IMG/VR virus record: IMGVR_UViG_3300046002_003599
Span: 1 to 37,549 of that record
Source: a virus
Reading direction: 5' to 3' (one strand)
Length of the DNA: 37,549 bases
The stretch's first letter is position 1. Each line of letters begins with the position of its first letter. The position numbers were made by a program, and so were the translations under genes. The notes beneath the pieces are model-generated. The model did no database searches and was not told where the DNA came from. It saw only the letters and a program-made list of their open reading frames with translations. This document shows, piece after piece, positions 18,743-37,549 of the stretch.

Positions 18743-19675
18743 CTATGCAACAGCATTAAAAGAGGTCGTTGCTCCTTTGTAAAAGCGTGAACCAATTTTA
18801 GTTGAATCAGCAACCGCAACCGCATCGTAAAGTTGTACAACTAAATCTTCTGCCGTTGTAATGGTTGTTGTTGGCTCGAAACTGTATTCTTTTGTTACGG
18901 GGTCTTGGCTTAACGATAAAGCCGTAATAGTATCAGAAACACCATCAATCGTAAAGCGTAAATTAGCAATAGCGATGTTGTTTAAGTTTTCCGCTTGGTT
19001 CATTGCAAACTTAGCAAAGAAATATACTTTTTGCTCTGAAACATCAGCACGACCCGTTAAAACAATGTCACTAATTGGGTAAAGTGCGGAATTAGGATTG
19101 AAACCTAAAGTAGCACTTGTTAAAATACTTGCGTTTGTCATAAACAAATCAGCGTTTGTAATTTGCATTGTTACAGAAACGGAATCAGAAACAGAACCGT
19201 TTGTAAACATATAAGTTCCCGTATTTAACATTCCTAAAGGAAAACCACTTAAAGTAGTTCCATCAACTAAAGCACCGATTGCACCCGTGTCGAATACGAA
19301 AAGCACGTCAAACGCTTGAAAACTATTCCAAGTGTATAAAGCACTTGCATATTTCCATCCTCTTTTTACAAATTTGAATGTAAATTGTGGTAATCCGTTA
19401 CGGACAACCGACATAACACCACTTTCGTATTCCTCTGTTGTTGGTTCAGGTGTGTTGTTACTAGCTTCAACCGCATCCAAAACGGGGTTAAAGTTTCCTA
19501 ATTGGATTTGCTCATTTACATAAGCTAAATCAAAATCGTCTGTTGTAGTATTCAAAGACCATCCTTTTGGTACTTGAACAAAGCCAACTAAACGACCTTC
19601 ATTGATTATACAATTTGGAGCACCTAGATTTTTTCTAGTTGTACTACAATCTTTTTGGTCAAATAATATTGCCAT
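18743..19675 (-). CDS. major tail tube protein
   Basis: 310 aa, beta-rich, low charge. It lies between a tail-completion-like gene and small pre-tape-measure genes, followed by a strong terminator as highly expressed virion genes often are. Segments such as GLPQFTFKFVKRGWKYASAL and GVSDTITALSLSQDPVTKEY fit a tube domain plus a possible Ig-like C-terminal decoration. Assigned by order and composition rather than a specific motif. Confidence 0.65.
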   Translation of the reverse strand: MAILFDQKDCSTTRKNLGAPNCIINEGRLVGFVQVPKGWSLNTTTDDFDLAYVNEQIQLGNFNPVLDAVEASNNTPEPTTEEYESGVMSVVRNGLPQFTFKFVKRGWKYASALYTWNSFQAFDVLFVFDTGAIGALVDGTTLSGFPLGMLNTGTYMFTNGSVSDSVSVTMQITNADLFMTNASILTSATLGFNPNSALYPISDIVLTGRADVSEQKVYFFAKFAMNQAENLNNIAIANLRFTIDGVSDTITALSLSQDPVTKEYSFEPTTTITTAEDLVVQLYDAVAVADSTKIGSRFYKGATTSFNAVA

Positions 19676-30126: not shown

Positions 30127-30564
30127 TTATATTGTTGTTGCTTTGGTTAAAAATTCTAAATATGCTTTTAATGCTAAATAATTAGCGTGTATAAATTTAA
30201 ACGATTCGTCACTTCTAGGTGTTGAAAATTCATCATTTGAATTAAAAAAAGAATCCCATTGCTCAATGTTCATTTCTTTACATCCAATTTGTATTGTTTG
30301 TTTCTCTAAGTTAACACTTGTTGACCATTTATTAAAAATCGGTAAAACAGCACCTCTCAAATTAGCACCACTCAAATCAGCACCACTCAAATTAGCACCA
30401 CTCAAATTAGCACCACTCAAATAAGCACCTCTCAAATTAGCACCACTCAAATTAGCACCACTCAAATTAGCATGTTCTAAAGTTTTTTTAATTGAATTAT
30501 TTTCTGATGTATGTGAAAACAAAACTTTTCCAAAAATACTTTTAATATCAATAGTAGTTTCCAT
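30127..30564 (-). CDS. pentapeptide-repeat protein
   Basis: 145 aa. Residues about 31-75 consist of A(N/D/Y)LSG/RG pentapeptides (ANLSG repeats), which fold as a right-handed four-sided beta-helix. Some such proteins mimic DNA and bind gyrase. The nine or so coils here are few, and a separate C-terminal region ([19 protein letters not shown] and on) follows. The DNA is an almost perfect 15-bp tandem repeat. Role unknown; host gyrase or nuclease inhibition is one possibility. Confidence 0.7.
30356..30475. repeat. 15-bp tandem repeat (8 units) inside the pentapeptide-repeat gene
   Basis: CTCAAATTAGCACCA recurs with 0-2 changes every 15 bases from 30356 to 30475. Near-identity at the DNA level, beyond what the peptide needs, suggests recent expansion and possible length variation. 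Confidence 0.85.
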
Positions 30565-30929: not shown

Positions 30930-31100
30930 TTAGATTTTTTGGAGTGCTTTATAAAAATAATCTTTAGACTTTTTTAACCCGTACCACTTTGAAAGTGTCA
31001 TTTCACTTGTAAATTCCTCACCCGTTGTTTTATAGTATGCCTTAACAATTACTATTGTATTTGCGTCTAACGGACTATCTATTTTTACTTTTTTAGACAT
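30930..31100 (-). CDS. small hypothetical protein (56 aa)
   Basis: ATG 31100..31098, TAA 30932..30930, starting 8 bases inside the NinG gene. Begins SKKVKIDSPLDANTIVIVKA and ends in a basic helix (KWYGLKKSKDYFYKALQKI). Possibly a small DNA-binding protein of the recombination operon; no family recognised. Confidence 0.55.
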   Translation of the reverse strand: MSKKVKIDSPLDANTIVIVKAYYKTTGEEFTSEMTLSKWYGLKKSKDYFYKALQKI

Positions 31101-31779
31101 AAATACCTAACATTTTATTATATTTTTTTCTTAACTCTATTCTTTCAACTGAATTGTAAATTTTATTTTCTAATTTTAAATGCTTAACTATTGACCTTGC
31201 AATTATAATTTTTTCTTTTAAATCTTCTTTACTTAGTTTTATAGTATTATAATCTGATTTAAGACGCATTACAATCGATTTAAGACCGTTTCCGTAATTT
31301 TCCTCAATACCTTTAATAAAATTAATTTGGTCGCCTGACAAGTATTGATTTGCATAAACAGATTGAGCATAAATATTTAAAAGATTAAATCTTAACGTTG
31401 GATTACTGCCTACTGAAAAAAGGTGTCCCGCATCAAACTTATCATTTAATGGTTTGCCAGTTGAAATACATTGAAAACCTTTATCTATTAATCTAACTAT
31501 TGTATTTATTTCCTTTTGTAATTCTTTTTGATAGTCTGATAAAGTTTTAATATTTTCTTTTAAAGTATTTTTAAATGCGTTTTCGCTTTTCTTAGTTTCT
31601 TTCTTTGCATAGATGATTGACTTTGCAAGTTTTATTTTACCGTTTTCGCTATTGAGTAAAAAATCGGTATAACAACACATTTTCCCTAATCCGTTAACTC
31701 GGTGCGTAGTTAATTTTCCACATCCGTAACCGTGTGCAATTCCGATTCCTTTACAGGGTTTCTCTTTTGGTTTAATCAT
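31093..31779 (-). CDS. ninG: NinG-like recombination protein (Rap family)
   Basis: 228 aa. N-terminal zinc-finger-like cysteines (PCKGIGIAHGYGCGK, MCCYTDF), a helical middle with lysines (YQKELQKEINTIVRLIDKGF), then CISTGKPLNDKFDAGHLFS with the FDAGH motif typical of NinG/Rap, an HNH-related structure-specific nuclease acting on D-loops and Holliday junctions in lambda. It overlaps ninB by 4 bases, matching the nin order. Confidence 0.75.
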   Translation of the reverse strand: MIKPKEKPCKGIGIAHGYGCGKLTTHRVNGLGKMCCYTDFLLNSENGKIKLAKSIIYAKKETKKSENAFKNTLKENIKTLSDYQKELQKEINTIVRLIDKGFQCISTGKPLNDKFDAGHLFSVGSNPTLRFNLLNIYAQSVYANQYLSGDQINFIKGIEENYGNGLKSIVMRLKSDYNTIKLSKEDLKEKIIIARSIVKHLKLENKIYNSVERIELRKKYNKMLGIYV

Positions 31780-32204
31780 AAGTCTAAAATTATTTCCTCG
31801 TTTGGATTTGGTATTTCTGTATTAAAATATTCTATCGCAAACTTTTGTACTTCCATTATCAACTCCATAAATTGAGTAGTAGTTAACTCGGTTGTTGATT
31901 TTATCCGTTCGATATATTCCCCGTTATCATTTGCTAAAATAGTTTCTTTTAAAAATCTAAGTTTTAACAATTCATGCGTTTGCTCTTTTGTCATAACGTG
32001 CCCCGCATCTTTTAAACAGTTTTGTATAATAACTACAACCACACCGTGCCAAAATGAATTTTGCGGGTTGCTCCTTTTCTTTTTAGCTTTCTCAATCGTC
32101 ACTATTACATTTTGCCCCTCAAAAGATTTTATTGCATCGATTAATAAATTGCGGTTACGTTTTAGTATTCCGTTTTCTACGTTGGAGCGTATTTCGTATT
32201 TCAT
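31776..32204 (-). CDS. ninB: NinB-like recombination protein
   Basis: 142 aa. KKKRSNPQNSFWHGVVVVII matches the conserved RSxxQN segment of NinB/Orf family proteins, which in lambda help RecBCD-independent recombination by binding single-stranded DNA and SSB. Next to ninG and downstream of replication genes. An 85-base spacer with two perfect hairpins separates it from the gene upstream. Confidence 0.7.
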   Translation of the reverse strand: MKYEIRSNVENGILKRNRNLLIDAIKSFEGQNVIVTIEKAKKKRSNPQNSFWHGVVVVIIQNCLKDAGHVMTKEQTHELLKLRFLKETILANDNGEYIERIKSTTELTTTQFMELIMEVQKFAIEYFNTEIPNPNEEIILDL

Positions 32205-32800: not shown

Positions 32801-33667
32801 TTAAAATTTAGGTTTTTCTTTGTTATTAATTGGTTTATCTGAAATTTGATAATCTACTACAAAAGGTAACCAATTACTATCGACTGCAAACGCAAACGGC
32901 TCAAATGGTTGGTTACGGGTGTACTCTGGGTTAACTAAAGTAAGTTCGTTTTCCTTTTCAACAAAGATAACGGTTTCTGCTTTTTTTAATATTGCACTCC
33001 CTAAGTGTCCCGTTGGTTTCTTAGTTCCAAAATTACGGTGCAACACGGTTATAATGTGACAATTTTCTTTAGCACTCCATTCTAACAACTTTTGAGCAAC
33101 GTTATTACTCGCTTCTAAATCGTTAACATCGTTTACTAAATCCGCAACCCCATCGATTGACACTAAACCGATATTACCTACATACTGACTTTTTGTAAAT
33201 AACCAATCGATAAACTCAAAACGTTCTTTAGCTGACAATTTACGCAAAGAAAACGGTTTATAAAAATCAGGGTTAACCCCTACTAATTCAACGACTCGTT
33301 TAAAAACTCTTTGTGAATGATATTCTGATTGCTCTGTATCAATATCAATAACGTATTTATCCGTTAATCGGTGTCCTTTTATTTCTGGTGCATTAATAAC
33401 CGTGTTACCACCAATATAACCACCTACTAAAAGTGATTTTAAAAACGATTTCTTTGCTTTTGATGCTCCTACAATACATGAAAAGTCACCGTATGAACCC
33501 ATAGGAATAGGGTAATTAGTGCCTTTATATTCTGCGTGTCCTATCGATATTGCAACGGGTTGAGGTTTTAAAATCTCATCAACTGAAACAAAATGTTCAT
33601 CGTGTATTTTATTAAAATCCTTATCTAAGGAAGTTAAATCTGATTGTATTACTATTGGTGCTATCAT
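32801..33667 (-). CDS. RepA/DnaB-like replicative helicase ATPase (AAA_25 type)
   Basis: 288 aa. Walker A is GASKAKKS at 67-74 (a Lys replaces the usual second Gly), Walker B GLVSIDG with D172, and a sensor-like LHRNFGT at 209-215. The layout matches RecA-fold replicative helicases of the RepA/AAA_25 group common in Bacteroidota phages. It likely unwinds DNA at the phage origin. Overlaps the gene upstream by ATGA and comes two genes after the initiator. Confidence 0.75.
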   Translation of the reverse strand: MIAPIVIQSDLTSLDKDFNKIHDEHFVSVDEILKPQPVAISIGHAEYKGTNYPIPMGSYGDFSCIVGASKAKKSFLKSLLVGGYIGGNTVINAPEIKGHRLTDKYVIDIDTEQSEYHSQRVFKRVVELVGVNPDFYKPFSLRKLSAKERFEFIDWLFTKSQYVGNIGLVSIDGVADLVNDVNDLEASNNVAQKLLEWSAKENCHIITVLHRNFGTKKPTGHLGSAILKKAETVIFVEKENELTLVNPEYTRNQPFEPFAFAVDSNWLPFVVDYQISDKPINNKEKPKF

Positions 33668-34092
33668 GGTTTGCTAAATGATTTTAACGCTAGAGTTATC
33701 ATTGCGTTTGTATTTTCTTTTGTAGTTTGTAAATCGTATGTTTCAAAACCTCGTTTTAATAATGGAAAATCTAAAACACCTTTTTTGCAAAGTTCCGATA
33801 ATTCCGTATTGTTTAATTCGTTCATCAAATCGATGTAAAGACTATCAATGTTTAGGTCTAAAACTTGATGCAGTTTTTGTTGTGCAACATCTAAAGATTG
33901 ATAATATTTTATGTAGTGAATTAAATTGTAAATATACAACTTTGCAAAGCATATATTTTTATTAGGGTTTGTTTCTATCGATTCATTAACGAACCATAAT
34001 AGCTTATTAAAAGCCTCTGCATCGTTTGCGTTTGGTTTATTCTGATTTGATATAGTAAATCCTAATCTTTGAAGTGCGTCTTTTACTTTCAT
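33664..34092 (-). CDS. unknown protein between initiator and helicase (possible helicase loader)
   Basis: 142 aa, mostly helical (EAFNKLLWFVNESIETNPNK, IYNLIHYIKYYQSLDVAQQK). It overlaps the initiator and the helicase genes by 4 bases each, the position of lambda P-type loaders. No ATPase motif, so it would be a non-ATPase loader or a replisome accessory. Role is inferred from position only. Confidence 0.55.
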   Translation of the reverse strand: MKVKDALQRLGFTISNQNKPNANDAEAFNKLLWFVNESIETNPNKNICFAKLYIYNLIHYIKYYQSLDVAQQKLHQVLDLNIDSLYIDLMNELNNTELSELCKKGVLDFPLLKRGFETYDLQTTKENTNAMITLALKSFSKP

Positions 34093-34961
34093 AACATTCC
34101 AATTTTAGTAACGTCTTTTTGATACTTACTTACCATAGATGAATAACTGAAAGTATCAATAGTAACATCTGTTAAATTTTCACGGTCTTTTTTTGCGTTA
34201 TCAAAAGCAATTAATAAATGGTCTTTTGAAAATCCACATTGTAACAAATTCAAATAACGTTTTTTTGTTTGCTCAGGAACTTCTGATAATTTTATTTTAG
34301 GATTAAACAAATCATTAAAGTAATCTAAAAATATTTTCCAATCGATTCTTTTATCTTCCGGCAATTCACTTTCTGTATCTTTTTGCTTATAGTCTTTTTT
34401 AAGCCATGTTTTTGCGGTTAAATAAAGAGATTTATATTTTTTGTTTTGTTTATAGTTTTGTATCTTTTCAAAACAATCAAATATATCTTCTTCTTTATAC
34501 TCATTAAGCAATTTACTAAAATCTAATTCCGTAATAGACAAATGCTCAAAAGAATATATTATATTGTTATTTTGTTTTATTATACTATCAGTGCTTTGTA
34601 CTGTGCTTTCGCCTTGCTTTGTATCGTGCTTTATTAGTGCTTTGTCTAATGCTTTGTTAGGTGCTTTATCAAAATTTGATAGAGCAACTATATTGCTACT
34701 AAATTGATTTTTTGATTTTTCAACTAAGATAATTAAACCAAAATCTACTAAATCGTTTAGCGTTTCCATGTAAGTATTGTAACTTCTTATCCCAATAGCT
34801 TCTTTTGCCATTGTAGTAGGTAGTCCTAATTTATCACGCCACCCTAATCTATTGTTATGTTCAACAATAAATAAAAATAATGCACAATGATTTGGTTTGA
34901 TTTTGTCGGGGTTTTCAAAAGCAAAATCCCAAAATGAACGGGTTAATGTAAAGTAATCCAT
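34089..34961 (-). CDS. replication initiator with N-terminal winged helix, origin encoded inside
   Basis: 290 aa. N-terminal 95 residues look like a winged-helix domain (HCALFLFIVEHNNRLGWRDK, SYNTYMETLNDLVDFGLIIL). Residues about 99-124 are a linker encoded by seven heptamer repeats. The C-terminal part (SELPEDKRIDWKIFLDYFND, CGFSKDHLLIAFDNAKKDRE) resembles phage replication organisers. By analogy with lambda O, it should bind the iterons within its own gene and recruit the helicase. The leader upstream contains three hairpins. Confidence 0.7.
   Translation of the reverse strand: MDYFTLTRSFWDFAFENPDKIKPNHCALFLFIVEHNNRLGWRDKLGLPTTMAKEAIGIRSYNTYMETLNDLVDFGLIILVEKSKNQFSSNIVALSNFDKAPNKALDKALIKHDTKQGESTVQSTDSIIKQNNNIIYSFEHLSITELDFSKLLNEYKEEDIFDCFEKIQNYKQNKKYKSLYLTAKTWLKKDYKQKDTESELPEDKRIDWKIFLDYFNDLFNPKIKLSEVPEQTKKRYLNLLQCGFSKDHLLIAFDNAKKDRENLTDVTIDTFSYSSMVSKYQKDVTKIGML
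34550..34667. other. putative replication origin: seven phased heptamers plus AT-rich tract
   Basis: GTGCTTT or one-base variants begin at 34591, 34603, 34614, 34626, 34637, 34649 and 34661, so spacing is 12, 11, 12, 11, 12, 12 bp, about one helical turn. In the coding strand AAAGCAC is read in all three frames, so the repeat is conserved as DNA, not as peptide. The adjoining stretch 34550-34588 is almost pure A/T, a candidate unwinding element. The arrangement copies lambda ori inside gene O. Confidence 0.75.
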
Positions 34962-35189: not shown

Positions 35190-35280
35190 CTAAAAAGGCA
35201 AATCATTAGCAGCCTCGTTCAACTCGCTAACCGTTTCAAAAGGTTGTCCTACTACTTCATTAACTACATTGTTAACTTGT
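35190..35280 (-). other. out-of-frame acidic tail of the single-strand DNA-binding protein
   Basis: Just past the TAA at 35274-35272, the +1 frame encodes VVGQPFETVSELNEAANDLP then Phe and a stop at 35192-35190. DUF3127 proteins and SSBs normally end in such an acidic tail with DLPF. The frame is therefore part of the same gene, separated by one base: mutation, sequencing error or programmed +1 frameshift at AGT-TAA-C. Confidence 0.7.
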
Positions 35281-35541
35281 TGTGAATGCGTTAATCTTCC
35301 AACCTTGTAAATTTACATAAAACTTACCGTTATACTCTGAACCTCTCACGTTAACATCAACGGTTATTTCTTGTCCTACTTTGTAACTATCTAAAATACT
35401 ACATTTGTCTTTTATAAAATCAATAGCAACCTTTTGCGGGTATTGCTCGCTGGTTTCAACTACAATTTGTCTTTTGGTAAATCCGTTGTTACCTACTGTT
35501 TCTGTTTGTCCAATTAAATGAACCTTTCCAATGATTTGCAT
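35272..35541 (-). CDS. single-strand DNA-binding-like protein (DUF3127 type), tail out of frame
   Basis: 89 aa from ATG 35541 (MQIIGKVHLIGQTETV); the longer frame from 35619 covers the previous gene and is rejected. Contains TKRQIVVETSEQYPQKVAID and SYKVGQEITVDVNVRGSEYN, an OB-like domain of the DUF3127 family. Expected role: coat single-stranded DNA in replication and annealing, together with ERF upstream. The stop TAA at 35274 cuts off the conserved acidic tail, which lies in the +1 frame down to 35190. Confidence 0.75.
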   Translation of the reverse strand: MQIIGKVHLIGQTETVGNNGFTKRQIVVETSEQYPQKVAIDFIKDKCSILDSYKVGQEITVDVNVRGSEYNGKFYVNLQGWKINAFTTS

Positions 35542-35581
35542 AATTATATATTTAAAGTTAATATTACGGTGATTATCGCCG

Positions 35582-35797
35582 TTATTTGTGCCTCTTATCA
35601 AAAAGATATTTCTGTACATCGTTTTTAGCCTTACGCTCCGCTTTCTTTAAAGATAGATAATATTTATCCTCTTTATTTATTTCGTACTCGTCAGACTCCC
35701 TTAATTCTACATAAGTAAACTGCCCTCTTATTTCGTTTGGTAAGTTGTCAAAATCTTGACTTCTCATTCTTAAAAAATATTCCTTTGAACCTGTCAT
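35582..35797 (-). CDS. small charged hypothetical protein (71 aa)
   Basis: Highly charged helices (TYVELRESDEYEINKEDKYY, SLKKAERKAKNDVQKYLFDK). Overlaps the HNH gene by ATGA. Probably a small early protein acting with the recombination genes; no family recognised. Confidence 0.55.
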   Translation of the reverse strand: MTGSKEYFLRMRSQDFDNLPNEIRGQFTYVELRESDEYEINKEDKYYLSLKKAERKAKNDVQKYLFDKRHK

Positions 35798-36288
35798 AAT
35801 AATTGTTTTAATGCGTTATTGTATGTGTTACTTGCATCTATTTCACATTCAAAATTTCCTAAAAATTTTTGCTTTCCATTTATTGTTATCTGCGAACGAT
35901 ATTTTTTTATTGTATTACAAAAATGAACACCTAAATACTTACTACTGCTTGATAAATGTTTTTGATTTGCATTTTCTCTTTGAGTAATTATTTCTAAATT
36001 TTCAACTCTATTGTCTTTTCTTATAAAATTTTTATGATTTATAACAATTTTATATCCATTAGGAATATGATTTAAAAAAACAATAGCAACTAAATGATGT
36101 ACATATCTTGTTTTACTTTTATTATTTTTTCTTAAAACAACAGTATCATAATTAGAAACTCCACTACTTTTTATTAAAGCAATTTCTTTTTTAGACCTTT
36201 TATAATTTAAGCTCTTTACGTTTCCTAAATTACTAACCTGATAAAGTCCTTCATACTCAGGAATGTCTTTATAAATTTCTTCTATCAT
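35794..36288 (-). CDS. HNH homing-type endonuclease with NUMOD4 and AP2-like domains
   Basis: 164 aa. NUMOD4 motif IPEYEGLYQVSNLGNVKSL at 9-27; the HNH core runs from VHHLVAIVFLNHIPNGYKI through VINHKNFIRKDNRVENLEII; residues about 115-160 form an AP2-like DNA-binding domain (KYLGVHFCNTIKKYRSQITI, GKQKFLGNF). This is the structure of free-standing homing endonucleases. It sits between ERF and the SSB-like gene but with ATGA overlaps at both ends, so it is well integrated into the operon. Confidence 0.8.
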   Translation of the reverse strand: MIEEIYKDIPEYEGLYQVSNLGNVKSLNYKRSKKEIALIKSSGVSNYDTVVLRKNNKSKTRYVHHLVAIVFLNHIPNGYKIVINHKNFIRKDNRVENLEIITQRENANQKHLSSSSKYLGVHFCNTIKKYRSQITINGKQKFLGNFECEIDASNTYNNALKQLL

Positions 36289-36800
36289 TGTAAAGTGTTT
36301 TTAAGTTGGTCTTTAAGTTTTAACGTTGCGGTTTTTTCAGCGGGTGTAAATGACGTATAAACCGTTTGTAATTCCGCTTTAGTAGTACAAGCCATTAACC
36401 TTGCGTTTAGTTTTTCAACGTTTAACGTTAAAGTAGGTTCTTTAGTACTCGCTTTATTTGCGTCGTCGTCCTCCGCTTGAAGTCCTAATAAAGATTGAAG
36501 TGTATAACGTCGATAATATGTTATTGCACTTCCTAACTTTTGAGGGTCGTTAAATTGCGTTAATTGGATTGAACTCTCAACACTCAATTCACTTTCACAA
36601 TGATAAATAATTGATTTTACCTCGTTGTTAATTATCGGTTGTAATAGTAACAATCCGTTTTTTTCTAGTAACGGTTCGACTTGCTCAATCAAACTATTAA
36701 TATCAAAATACTTTGATTTAAAGAATGGGTTTGTTTCCGTTTTAGATAACTTACCTACTTCTTTTTTTACGTTGGCTAATGCTTTTAGTAATTCTTTCAT
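36285..36800 (-). CDS. erf: ERF-family single-strand annealing protein
   Basis: 171 aa. KTETNPFFKSKYFDINSLIE, then DPQKLGSAITYYRRYTLQSL and LLGLQAEDDDAN form the ERF signature. Such proteins anneal complementary strands for recombination and genome circularisation. The C-terminus (EPTLTLNVEKLNARLMACTT onwards) is a separate helical region. First gene after a structured leader; followed by the nuclease and the single-strand DNA-binding protein. Confidence 0.85.
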   Translation of the reverse strand: MKELLKALANVKKEVGKLSKTETNPFFKSKYFDINSLIEQVEPLLEKNGLLLLQPIINNEVKSIIYHCESELSVESSIQLTQFNDPQKLGSAITYYRRYTLQSLLGLQAEDDDANKASTKEPTLTLNVEKLNARLMACTTKAELQTVYTSFTPAEKTATLKLKDQLKNTLQ

Positions 36801-37058: not shown

Positions 37059-37549
37059 TAGAATAGTTTTTGTTGTGAAACGTGGTTTTTTACTCGTTGT
37101 ATTCCTTTATCGTAGTACTCTTTATCCAATTCTGCCCCAACCAATTCAAATCCGTAATCGTGACAAGCTATTGCGATTGACATTGAACCTAAATGGGTGT
37201 CTAGTATTTTGTCGCCTTGTTTGGCATAGTTATCTAAACAGAATTTATATAATTGTATTGGTTTTGCAGTAGGATGAAACCTATTTACGTCTTGGCTTCT
37301 TACTTCGTATGTTTTAGCCACTTTGTCAAAAGAAGTCCACCTAAATTCCCAACGGCTTAAAGTTTCCATCATTTGTTTTTTATCCCAACAAATAATTCCT
37401 CTTGTATTGTAAAGATGTTCTATAAAATAATTTCCACCCCAAATTATTTGGTTTTTAGACACTCTCATTAATTCCTTAAAATATTCAGGTCTTGGAATTT
37501 CATCATCCCATTTCTTTTCCTTAAAACTTTCTTTGTATTTTTTCATGAT
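37058..37549 (-). CDS. DNA amino-methyltransferase, C-terminal part
   Basis: Continues the gene begun at 1-272; the window edge falls inside it. NQIIWGGNYF (conserved after motif IV), EIPRPEYFKELMRVSK before it, and near the end KILDTHLGSMSIAIACHDYG plus FELVGAELDKEYY, which correspond to motif I (SAM binding) and the following acidic residue. HLGSMS replaces the usual FxGxGT, a variant common in phage enzymes. Its stop overlaps the ATG of a 42-aa basic protein. Confidence 0.85.
   Translation of the reverse strand: MMKKYKESFKEKKWDDEIPRPEYFKELMRVSKNQIIWGGNYFIEHLYNTRGIICWDKKQMMETLSRWEFRWTSFDKVAKTYEVRSQDVNRFHPTAKPIQLYKFCLDNYAKQGDKILDTHLGSMSIAIACHDYGFELVGAELDKEYYDKGIQRVKNHVSQQKLF
37424..37549. 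repeat. terminal direct repeat, right copy
   Basis: Identical to 3-128. The two bases before it (37422-37423, AT) differ from bases 1-2 (GG). See the left copy for interpretation. Confidence 0.9.

Follow-up and report, generated by a model that had tools for sequence, protein, structure and literature searches.

What is a short DNA word doing when it recurs seven times, every 11-12 bp and in three different reading frames, within a single phage gene? The window analysed here, that is, the whole stretch of 37,549 nucleotides, represents a tailed Bacteroidota phage that encodes terminase, portal, capsid and tape measure and has nearly all of its genes on the minus strand. The ends of the window, 1-128 and 37422-37549, are the same 128 bp but for 2 mismatches, and one DNA methyltransferase gene runs across their junction; thus, the genome in this record is probably complete, and either circular or terminally redundant. 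The gene that carries the repeats (34089-34961, minus strand) is an open reading frame for a replication initiator of 290 aa, assigned through weak PHROG matches, in which an N-domain, a linker with the array and a C-domain follow one another.

The array, the initiator and the neighbouring genes

On the coding strand, the array is made of seven copies of AAAGCAC (core AAAGCA) between 34591 and 34667 (minus strand), separated by steps of 12, 12, 11, 12, 11 and 12 bp and conserved in relatives. Along the gene, the copies are AAAGCAC (34661-34667), AAAGCAT (34649-34655) and AAAGCAC (34637-34643) in frame 0, AAAGCAC (34626-34632) and AAAGCAA (34614-34620) in frame 2, and AAAGCAC (34603-34609) and AAAGCAC (34591-34597) in frame 1, all on the minus strand, at coding-strand offsets 294, 306, 318, 329, 341, 352 and 364 of the initiator gene. 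The two 11-bp steps bring the word out of frame 0, first into frame 2 and then into frame 1, and the residues that it encodes in its three frames are KA, KH/KQ and ES/QS. The sequence-only reading was therefore right in describing seven heptamers (GTGCTTT, that is, AAAGCAC on the coding strand), two of them with one change, that lie 11-12 bp apart and are read in three frames of the initiator (0,0,0,2,2,1,1). The same reading had called the array helically phased. The 11/12-bp steps average 11.67 bp, with a drift of ~1.2 bp per turn, so that the array is only roughly phased with the helix.

It had also been claimed that protein constraint cannot explain the heptamers, and this is borne out both by synonymous re-encoding of the linker and by codon choice in relatives (see below). 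When the linker peptide was kept fixed and its codons were drawn 3000 times according to the phage's own codon usage, a mean of 2.9 near-copies and 0.6 exact copies was obtained; seven near-copies were reached in 2/3000 draws and five exact copies in 0/3000. The best phased AAAGCAC chain in 13 other genes of the window was 3, and no second phased chain of at least three iteron words was found on either strand of the whole window. Three GTGCTTT words are also present within 76 bp at 19269-19344 (minus strand), with unphased spacings of 31 and 38 bp, a trio that probably arose by chance.

Just after the array lies an A/T-rich tract (34550-34590, minus strand), which is the proposed DNA-unwinding element. 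The tract, first described as A/T-only, does adjoin the array and is 88% A/T, but its longest uninterrupted A/T run is 13 bp; it falls within the top 0.8% of 40-bp windows for A/T content. In 67 relatives, A/T content just past the array is 6.5 points higher than in the following 105 bp (p=5e-8), and this enrichment, which covers ~45 bp, is family-wide although the encoded C-domains differ. As regards other origin signals, DnaA-box-like matches occur at five places in the window, none of them close to the array, and there is no switch in GC skew around 34.6 kb, a measure that is uninformative here because the major genes are all on the same strand.

The N-domain (residues 1-98; 34668-34961, minus strand) is the proposed reader of the array. 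AlphaFold2 models it with a winged-helix topology and a pLDDT mostly >90, and the C-domain (34092-34556, minus strand) is poorly modelled. When the N-domain was taken from the full-length initiator model for fold comparison, matches were obtained to 4pql (Z 9.1, 106 residues), 4pt7 (Z 9.0, 108), 5kbj (Z 8.7, 106) and 4pta (Z 8.3, 100), which are titled initiator or Rep-DNA structures and have the longest aligned stretches among the best matches, with the generic winged-helix proteins Fur, LexA and MarR scoring like them. We take these four structures to be pSK41-type RepA_N proteins. The matches came from fold comparison alone, as a profile search of PDB sequences with the N-domain returned none, and the initiator matches no Pfam family at E up to 1, hence not RepA_N. 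The weak PHROG matches of the initiator are to a replisome organizer (phrog_13246), falling on the C-domain, and to an O-like replication initiation protein (phrog_18020); the initiators of relatives match replication-initiation/primosomal PHROGs, with E-values down to 1e-20. In public records, gene starts clip the winged-helix domain of the initiator in PT33 (L035, 5001-5204) and CRP5 (L134, 704-811).

The neighbourhood of the initiator is a replication module, encoded throughout on the minus strand. The gene directly downstream in the operon (33664-34092) encodes a 142-aa protein with no Pfam match at E 1e-3 or better. It is followed by an AAA_25 (RecA-like) ATPase that is a candidate helicase or helicase loader (32801-33667; Pfam PF13481, 2.4e-06), by NinB (31776-32204; phrog_72, 8e-18) and by NinG (31093-31779; Pfam NinG, 6e-28). 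Upstream are a single-strand DNA-binding protein (DUF3127; 35272-35619; phrog_4932, 3e-30) and an ERF single-strand annealing protein (36285-36800; Pfam ERF, 1e-22). In relatives, the genes downstream of the initiator encode DnaC-like loaders (L008, L031, L113) or, in other members, a DnaB helicase (L123) or primase/helicases (L003, L012, L089). A NUMOD4/HNH homing endonuclease gene (35794-36288) lies between the recombination and single-strand-binding genes of the window, and a pentapeptide-repeat-like protein with ANLSG units is encoded at 30127-30564, where a 15-bp tandem repeat is found at 30349-30472.

The array very probably represents a theta-replication origin, or the initiator-binding half of one, that lies within its own initiator gene, where the linker is encoded. 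An origin of this intragenic kind explains the data best because the array and the DNA-binding N-domain segregate together and because helicase or loader genes adjoin the initiator in relatives. The initiator might instead bind its own gene as an operator, in order to repress or road-block the replication operon, the true origin being elsewhere. Although such winged-helix domains are common in repressors and plasmid Rep proteins are known to regulate themselves, this is improbable for an array that lies deep inside the gene, with many phased copies, an A/T-rich flank and no second array in the genome, and for an initiator whose C-domains match primosomal and initiator families and whose gene is adjoined, in relatives, by loader/helicase genes. 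A centromere-like (parS) array, serving partition or the spreading of a DNA-binding protein, is suggested by the top Foldseek match by E-value, the pNOB8 centromere-binding protein (4rs8, E 0.01), but it is very unlikely, as no partition genes occur among the scanned proteins, the neighbours being SSB, ERF, NinB, NinG and the RecA-like ATPase, and relatives carry replicative helicases or loaders. A plasmid with a window-type initiator would have offered independent evidence for a replicon; none is present in PLSDB.

Conservation and codon choice in related phages

Relatives were collected from viral contigs and bacterial genomes through protein similarity, mainly that of the N-domain, and the Polaribacter phage Danklef was added to the set. 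The bacterial hosts named among them are nearly all Bacteroidota, such as Flavobacterium, Chryseobacterium, Lutibacter, Winogradskyella, Cecembia and others. The repeats are kept in nearly all of ~90 related phages. Among 68 representatives with >8% difference in N-domain DNA, which are not statistically independent, four or more phased copies occur in 63 and the frame order 0-2-1 in 60, and spacings of 12 bp (221 occurrences) and 11 bp (100 occurrences) are found. The conserved core is the hexamer AAAGCA, base 7 being looser, and copy number shifts by in-frame 12-bp units. The alignment of related phages that the sequence-only reading had proposed thus finds the hexamers and their 11/12-bp phase persisting while the linker peptide varies, and the opposite case, a relative with the linker peptide kept and the repeats lost, was not found. 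In one relative (L030, 3294-3472), an 88-bp step splits the array in two groups, and the frame-1 copies resume past the gap.

Codons were counted in a fixed linker stretch that was picked blind to the motif. In this stretch, GCA accounts for 94% of Ala codons vs 31% in the N-domain, AGC for 52% of Ser codons vs 14%, and CAC for 64% of His codons vs 22%. Linker Lys before Ala is encoded by AAA in 180 cases and by AAG in 3, while before His it is encoded by AAG in 66 cases and by AAA in 6, a switch that preserves AAAGCA in another frame. In 51 of the 68 members, selected for near-canonical offsets, third codon positions hold 1.79 bits of information inside the hexamers, as compared with 0.89 in the spacers and 0.75 in the N-domain. 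The repeats are under DNA-level selection in three frames, and neither peptide constraint nor neutral slippage can give this codon pattern.

The codon data bear directly on two further explanations. A minisatellite that had expanded by slippage within a disordered linker, and that had no function at the DNA level, would accommodate the in-frame changes in copy number (15 in CRP5, 7 in CRP6, and extra 12-bp units in some relatives), but the hexamers are constant while the spacers vary, third codon positions are held inside the hexamers only, codons switch to keep the DNA word, and the two frame-shifting 11-bp steps are conserved. Neutral growth would conserve whole units and not hexamers, so that this explanation is contradicted by the codon data and has very little probability. 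Selection on the linker peptide, with the DNA repeat as a by-product, is scarcely credible even though a KALDKAL-type peptide recurs in relatives, since one DNA word encodes KA, KH/KQ and ES/QS and the synonymous choices follow the DNA.

Exchange of domains and a second, probable initiator family

Sixty-six relatives fall in one N-domain cluster and ten C-domain clusters with the array kept, and the exchange of C-domains among them occurs just past the array. A further locus (L010) has the C-domain of the window at 60%, a different N-domain and no AAAGCAC. Natural chimeras are also found. The N-domains of the Riemerella phages PT33 and CRP5/CRP6 start identically and their repeats are of one type, but their C-domains differ, and GRAP2, PJA1 and CRP19 have the C-domain of PT33 at 98-100%, combined with an N-domain of the DUF6291 type and with another linker. 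In GRAP2, this linker contains a clear array of eight AACCGAA copies in 11-bp steps, and the candidate array of PJA1 is weak, its four copies lying within the shuffle range. In particular, at least four phased AAAGCAC copies are found in 63/68 window-type vs 0/66 DUF6291-type genes, and at least four phased AACCNAA copies in 0/68 window-type vs 21/66 DUF6291-type genes. In these comparisons, the array travels with the N-domain and not with the C-domain.

Iteron number varies naturally, as CRP5 (L134) has 15 copies and CRP6 (L145) has 7 with the same N- and C-domains. The initiator in record OQ791282.1, named Shigella phage Henu10, is 100% identical to that of Riemerella phages, and the host label of this record may be wrong.

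Other initiators have 11-12-bp arrays of different words in this linker. Such arrays exceed a codon-resampled null in Bacteroides BS-TP3, Aeribacillus AP45 and Marinitoga MPV1. Those of Riemerella PT33, Gundel and bajarod4 are suggestive and less separable from repetitive peptides, the arrays of PT33 and bajarod4 being confined to a single frame and not clearly beyond a repetitive peptide. The automatic array test gave no resolved array in PLE3 and Dulem40, and scans for relatives of the bajarod4, Gundel and BS-TP3 initiators returned zero or one locus each. A Hymenobacter plasmid initiator has a weak repeat chain of 4.

A scan for DUF6291-type initiators gave 80 loci with 67 distinct genes, of which 30 have chains of at least six copies, with shuffle maxima of 2-5. 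The commonest core, AACC[A/G]AA, recurs in strict 11-bp steps that take it through frames 2,1,0,2,1,0, and the arrays reach up to 11-13 copies. Genes with AACC[A/G]AA arrays include L150-L228, L135 and L229. An AACC array is also present in the Nitratiruptor phage NrS-3, whose N-domain has 40% identity to the DUF6291 type. As AAAGCAC and AACCNAA are each tied to one type of N-domain, at least two unrelated N-domains have a matched intragenic array. DUF6291 proteins are probably phage replication initiators; no paper on DUF6291 was found in the literature searched.

The proposed origin, its known counterparts and its meaning

We infer initiator binding, spiral geometry, melting, loader recruitment and origin activity along the following lines. 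The winged helix of the N-domain would bind AAAGCA, with one copy per approximately one DNA turn, as their co-segregation suggests, and the spacing of the copies is consistent with bound initiators that align as a compact spiral. This spiral may strain the A/T-rich stretch downstream until the tract opens, a step for which the A/T enrichment and the precedents of lambda and SPP1 argue. The C-domain would then recruit a helicase or loader, here probably the AAA_25 ATPase at 32801-33667, as indicated by gene order and by C-domain families.

An origin inside the initiator gene is a known layout. In the best reading, the array functions in the manner of lambda ori/O, SPP1 oriL and, most of all, the pSK41-type RepA_N systems, while it belongs to none of them by sequence. 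Fold match and domain logic place it closer to the pSK41-type RepA_N initiators than to lambda O. In pSK41, the NTD of Rep binds Rep boxes inside rep and the origin-coded linker is dispensable as protein; in the chimera pPR9, NTD and origin were swapped and the CTD was retained (PMC5703833). A winged-helix NTD, mid-gene repeats, an origin-coded linker and an exchangeable CTD are common to both. The CTD of a RepA_N initiator is expected to be exchangeable and also to interact with host primase, and of these two traits exchangeability was seen here. However, the pSK41 repeats are bound by the NTD, whereas reading of the present array by the N-domain is suggested by co-segregation; there are four Rep boxes in pSK41, as opposed to words of 6-7 bp that recur every 11-12 bp over three frames; and pSK41 is a plasmid, while the present system belongs to a phage and lacks a Pfam RepA_N match.

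In lambda-type phages, iterons are bound by O dimers, four being present in lambda and six in Stx phages, and their number varies, adding residues to O (PMC7466680). The sequence-only reading had recognised a lambda-ori layout, and this holds for the mid-gene iterons in the initiator gene and for the adjoining A/T-rich tract, with NinB and NinG nearby here too. It does not hold for the iterons themselves, which in lambda are long, imperfect-dyad and dimer-bound, in contrast to the seven short non-palindromic direct repeats found here at a mean of 11.67 bp; moreover, the O-like PHROG matches of the initiator are weak. Similarly, the SPP1 replisome organizer gene (gp38/oriL) contains direct repeats and an A/T-rich unwinding element (PMC6316719). 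The likeness to oriL is one of layout, namely, intragenic repeats with an A/T element, and SPP1 also encodes a loader and a helicase; however, SPP1 has a second origin, oriR, whereas a single array was found in the window. Finally, DnaD-like initiators of Firmicutes/Thermotogota phages (PLE3, AP45, MPV1) have repetitive DNA in the same linker and an N-domain sequence-related to the Riemerella/MPV1 types, but differ in their repeat words and in their C-domains (DnaB_2 or Phg_2220_C).

What is novel here is the use of very short words, the conserved 11/12-bp mix over three frames and the strong codon footprint, together with the recurrence of the same design with unrelated N-domains. No description of the array in Bacteroidota phages was found in the literature searched, which took in few subscription journals. 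On a nearly balanced judgement, we tentatively suggest that frame-walking arrays of short words at 11-12 bp form a widespread convergent class of origins, with DUF6291 proteins among its hitherto unrecognised initiators. If this is true, unrelated N-domains (winged-helix, DUF6291) would each have a matching array in the linker, initiators would be arranged as one protein per DNA turn in a continuous spiral, and N-domain and array would be exchanged among phages as one specificity unit.

In uncultivated Bacteroidota phages, the array offers a route, from sequence only, to the origin and to the domain that gives the initiator its specificity, and it yields a prediction of the DNA word read by each N-domain. 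The chimeras found in nature represent ready-made swaps for studying the evolution of initiator-origin specificity. In these phages, DNA and protein coding are superimposed in three frames, and the proposed binding site sets the choice of codons.
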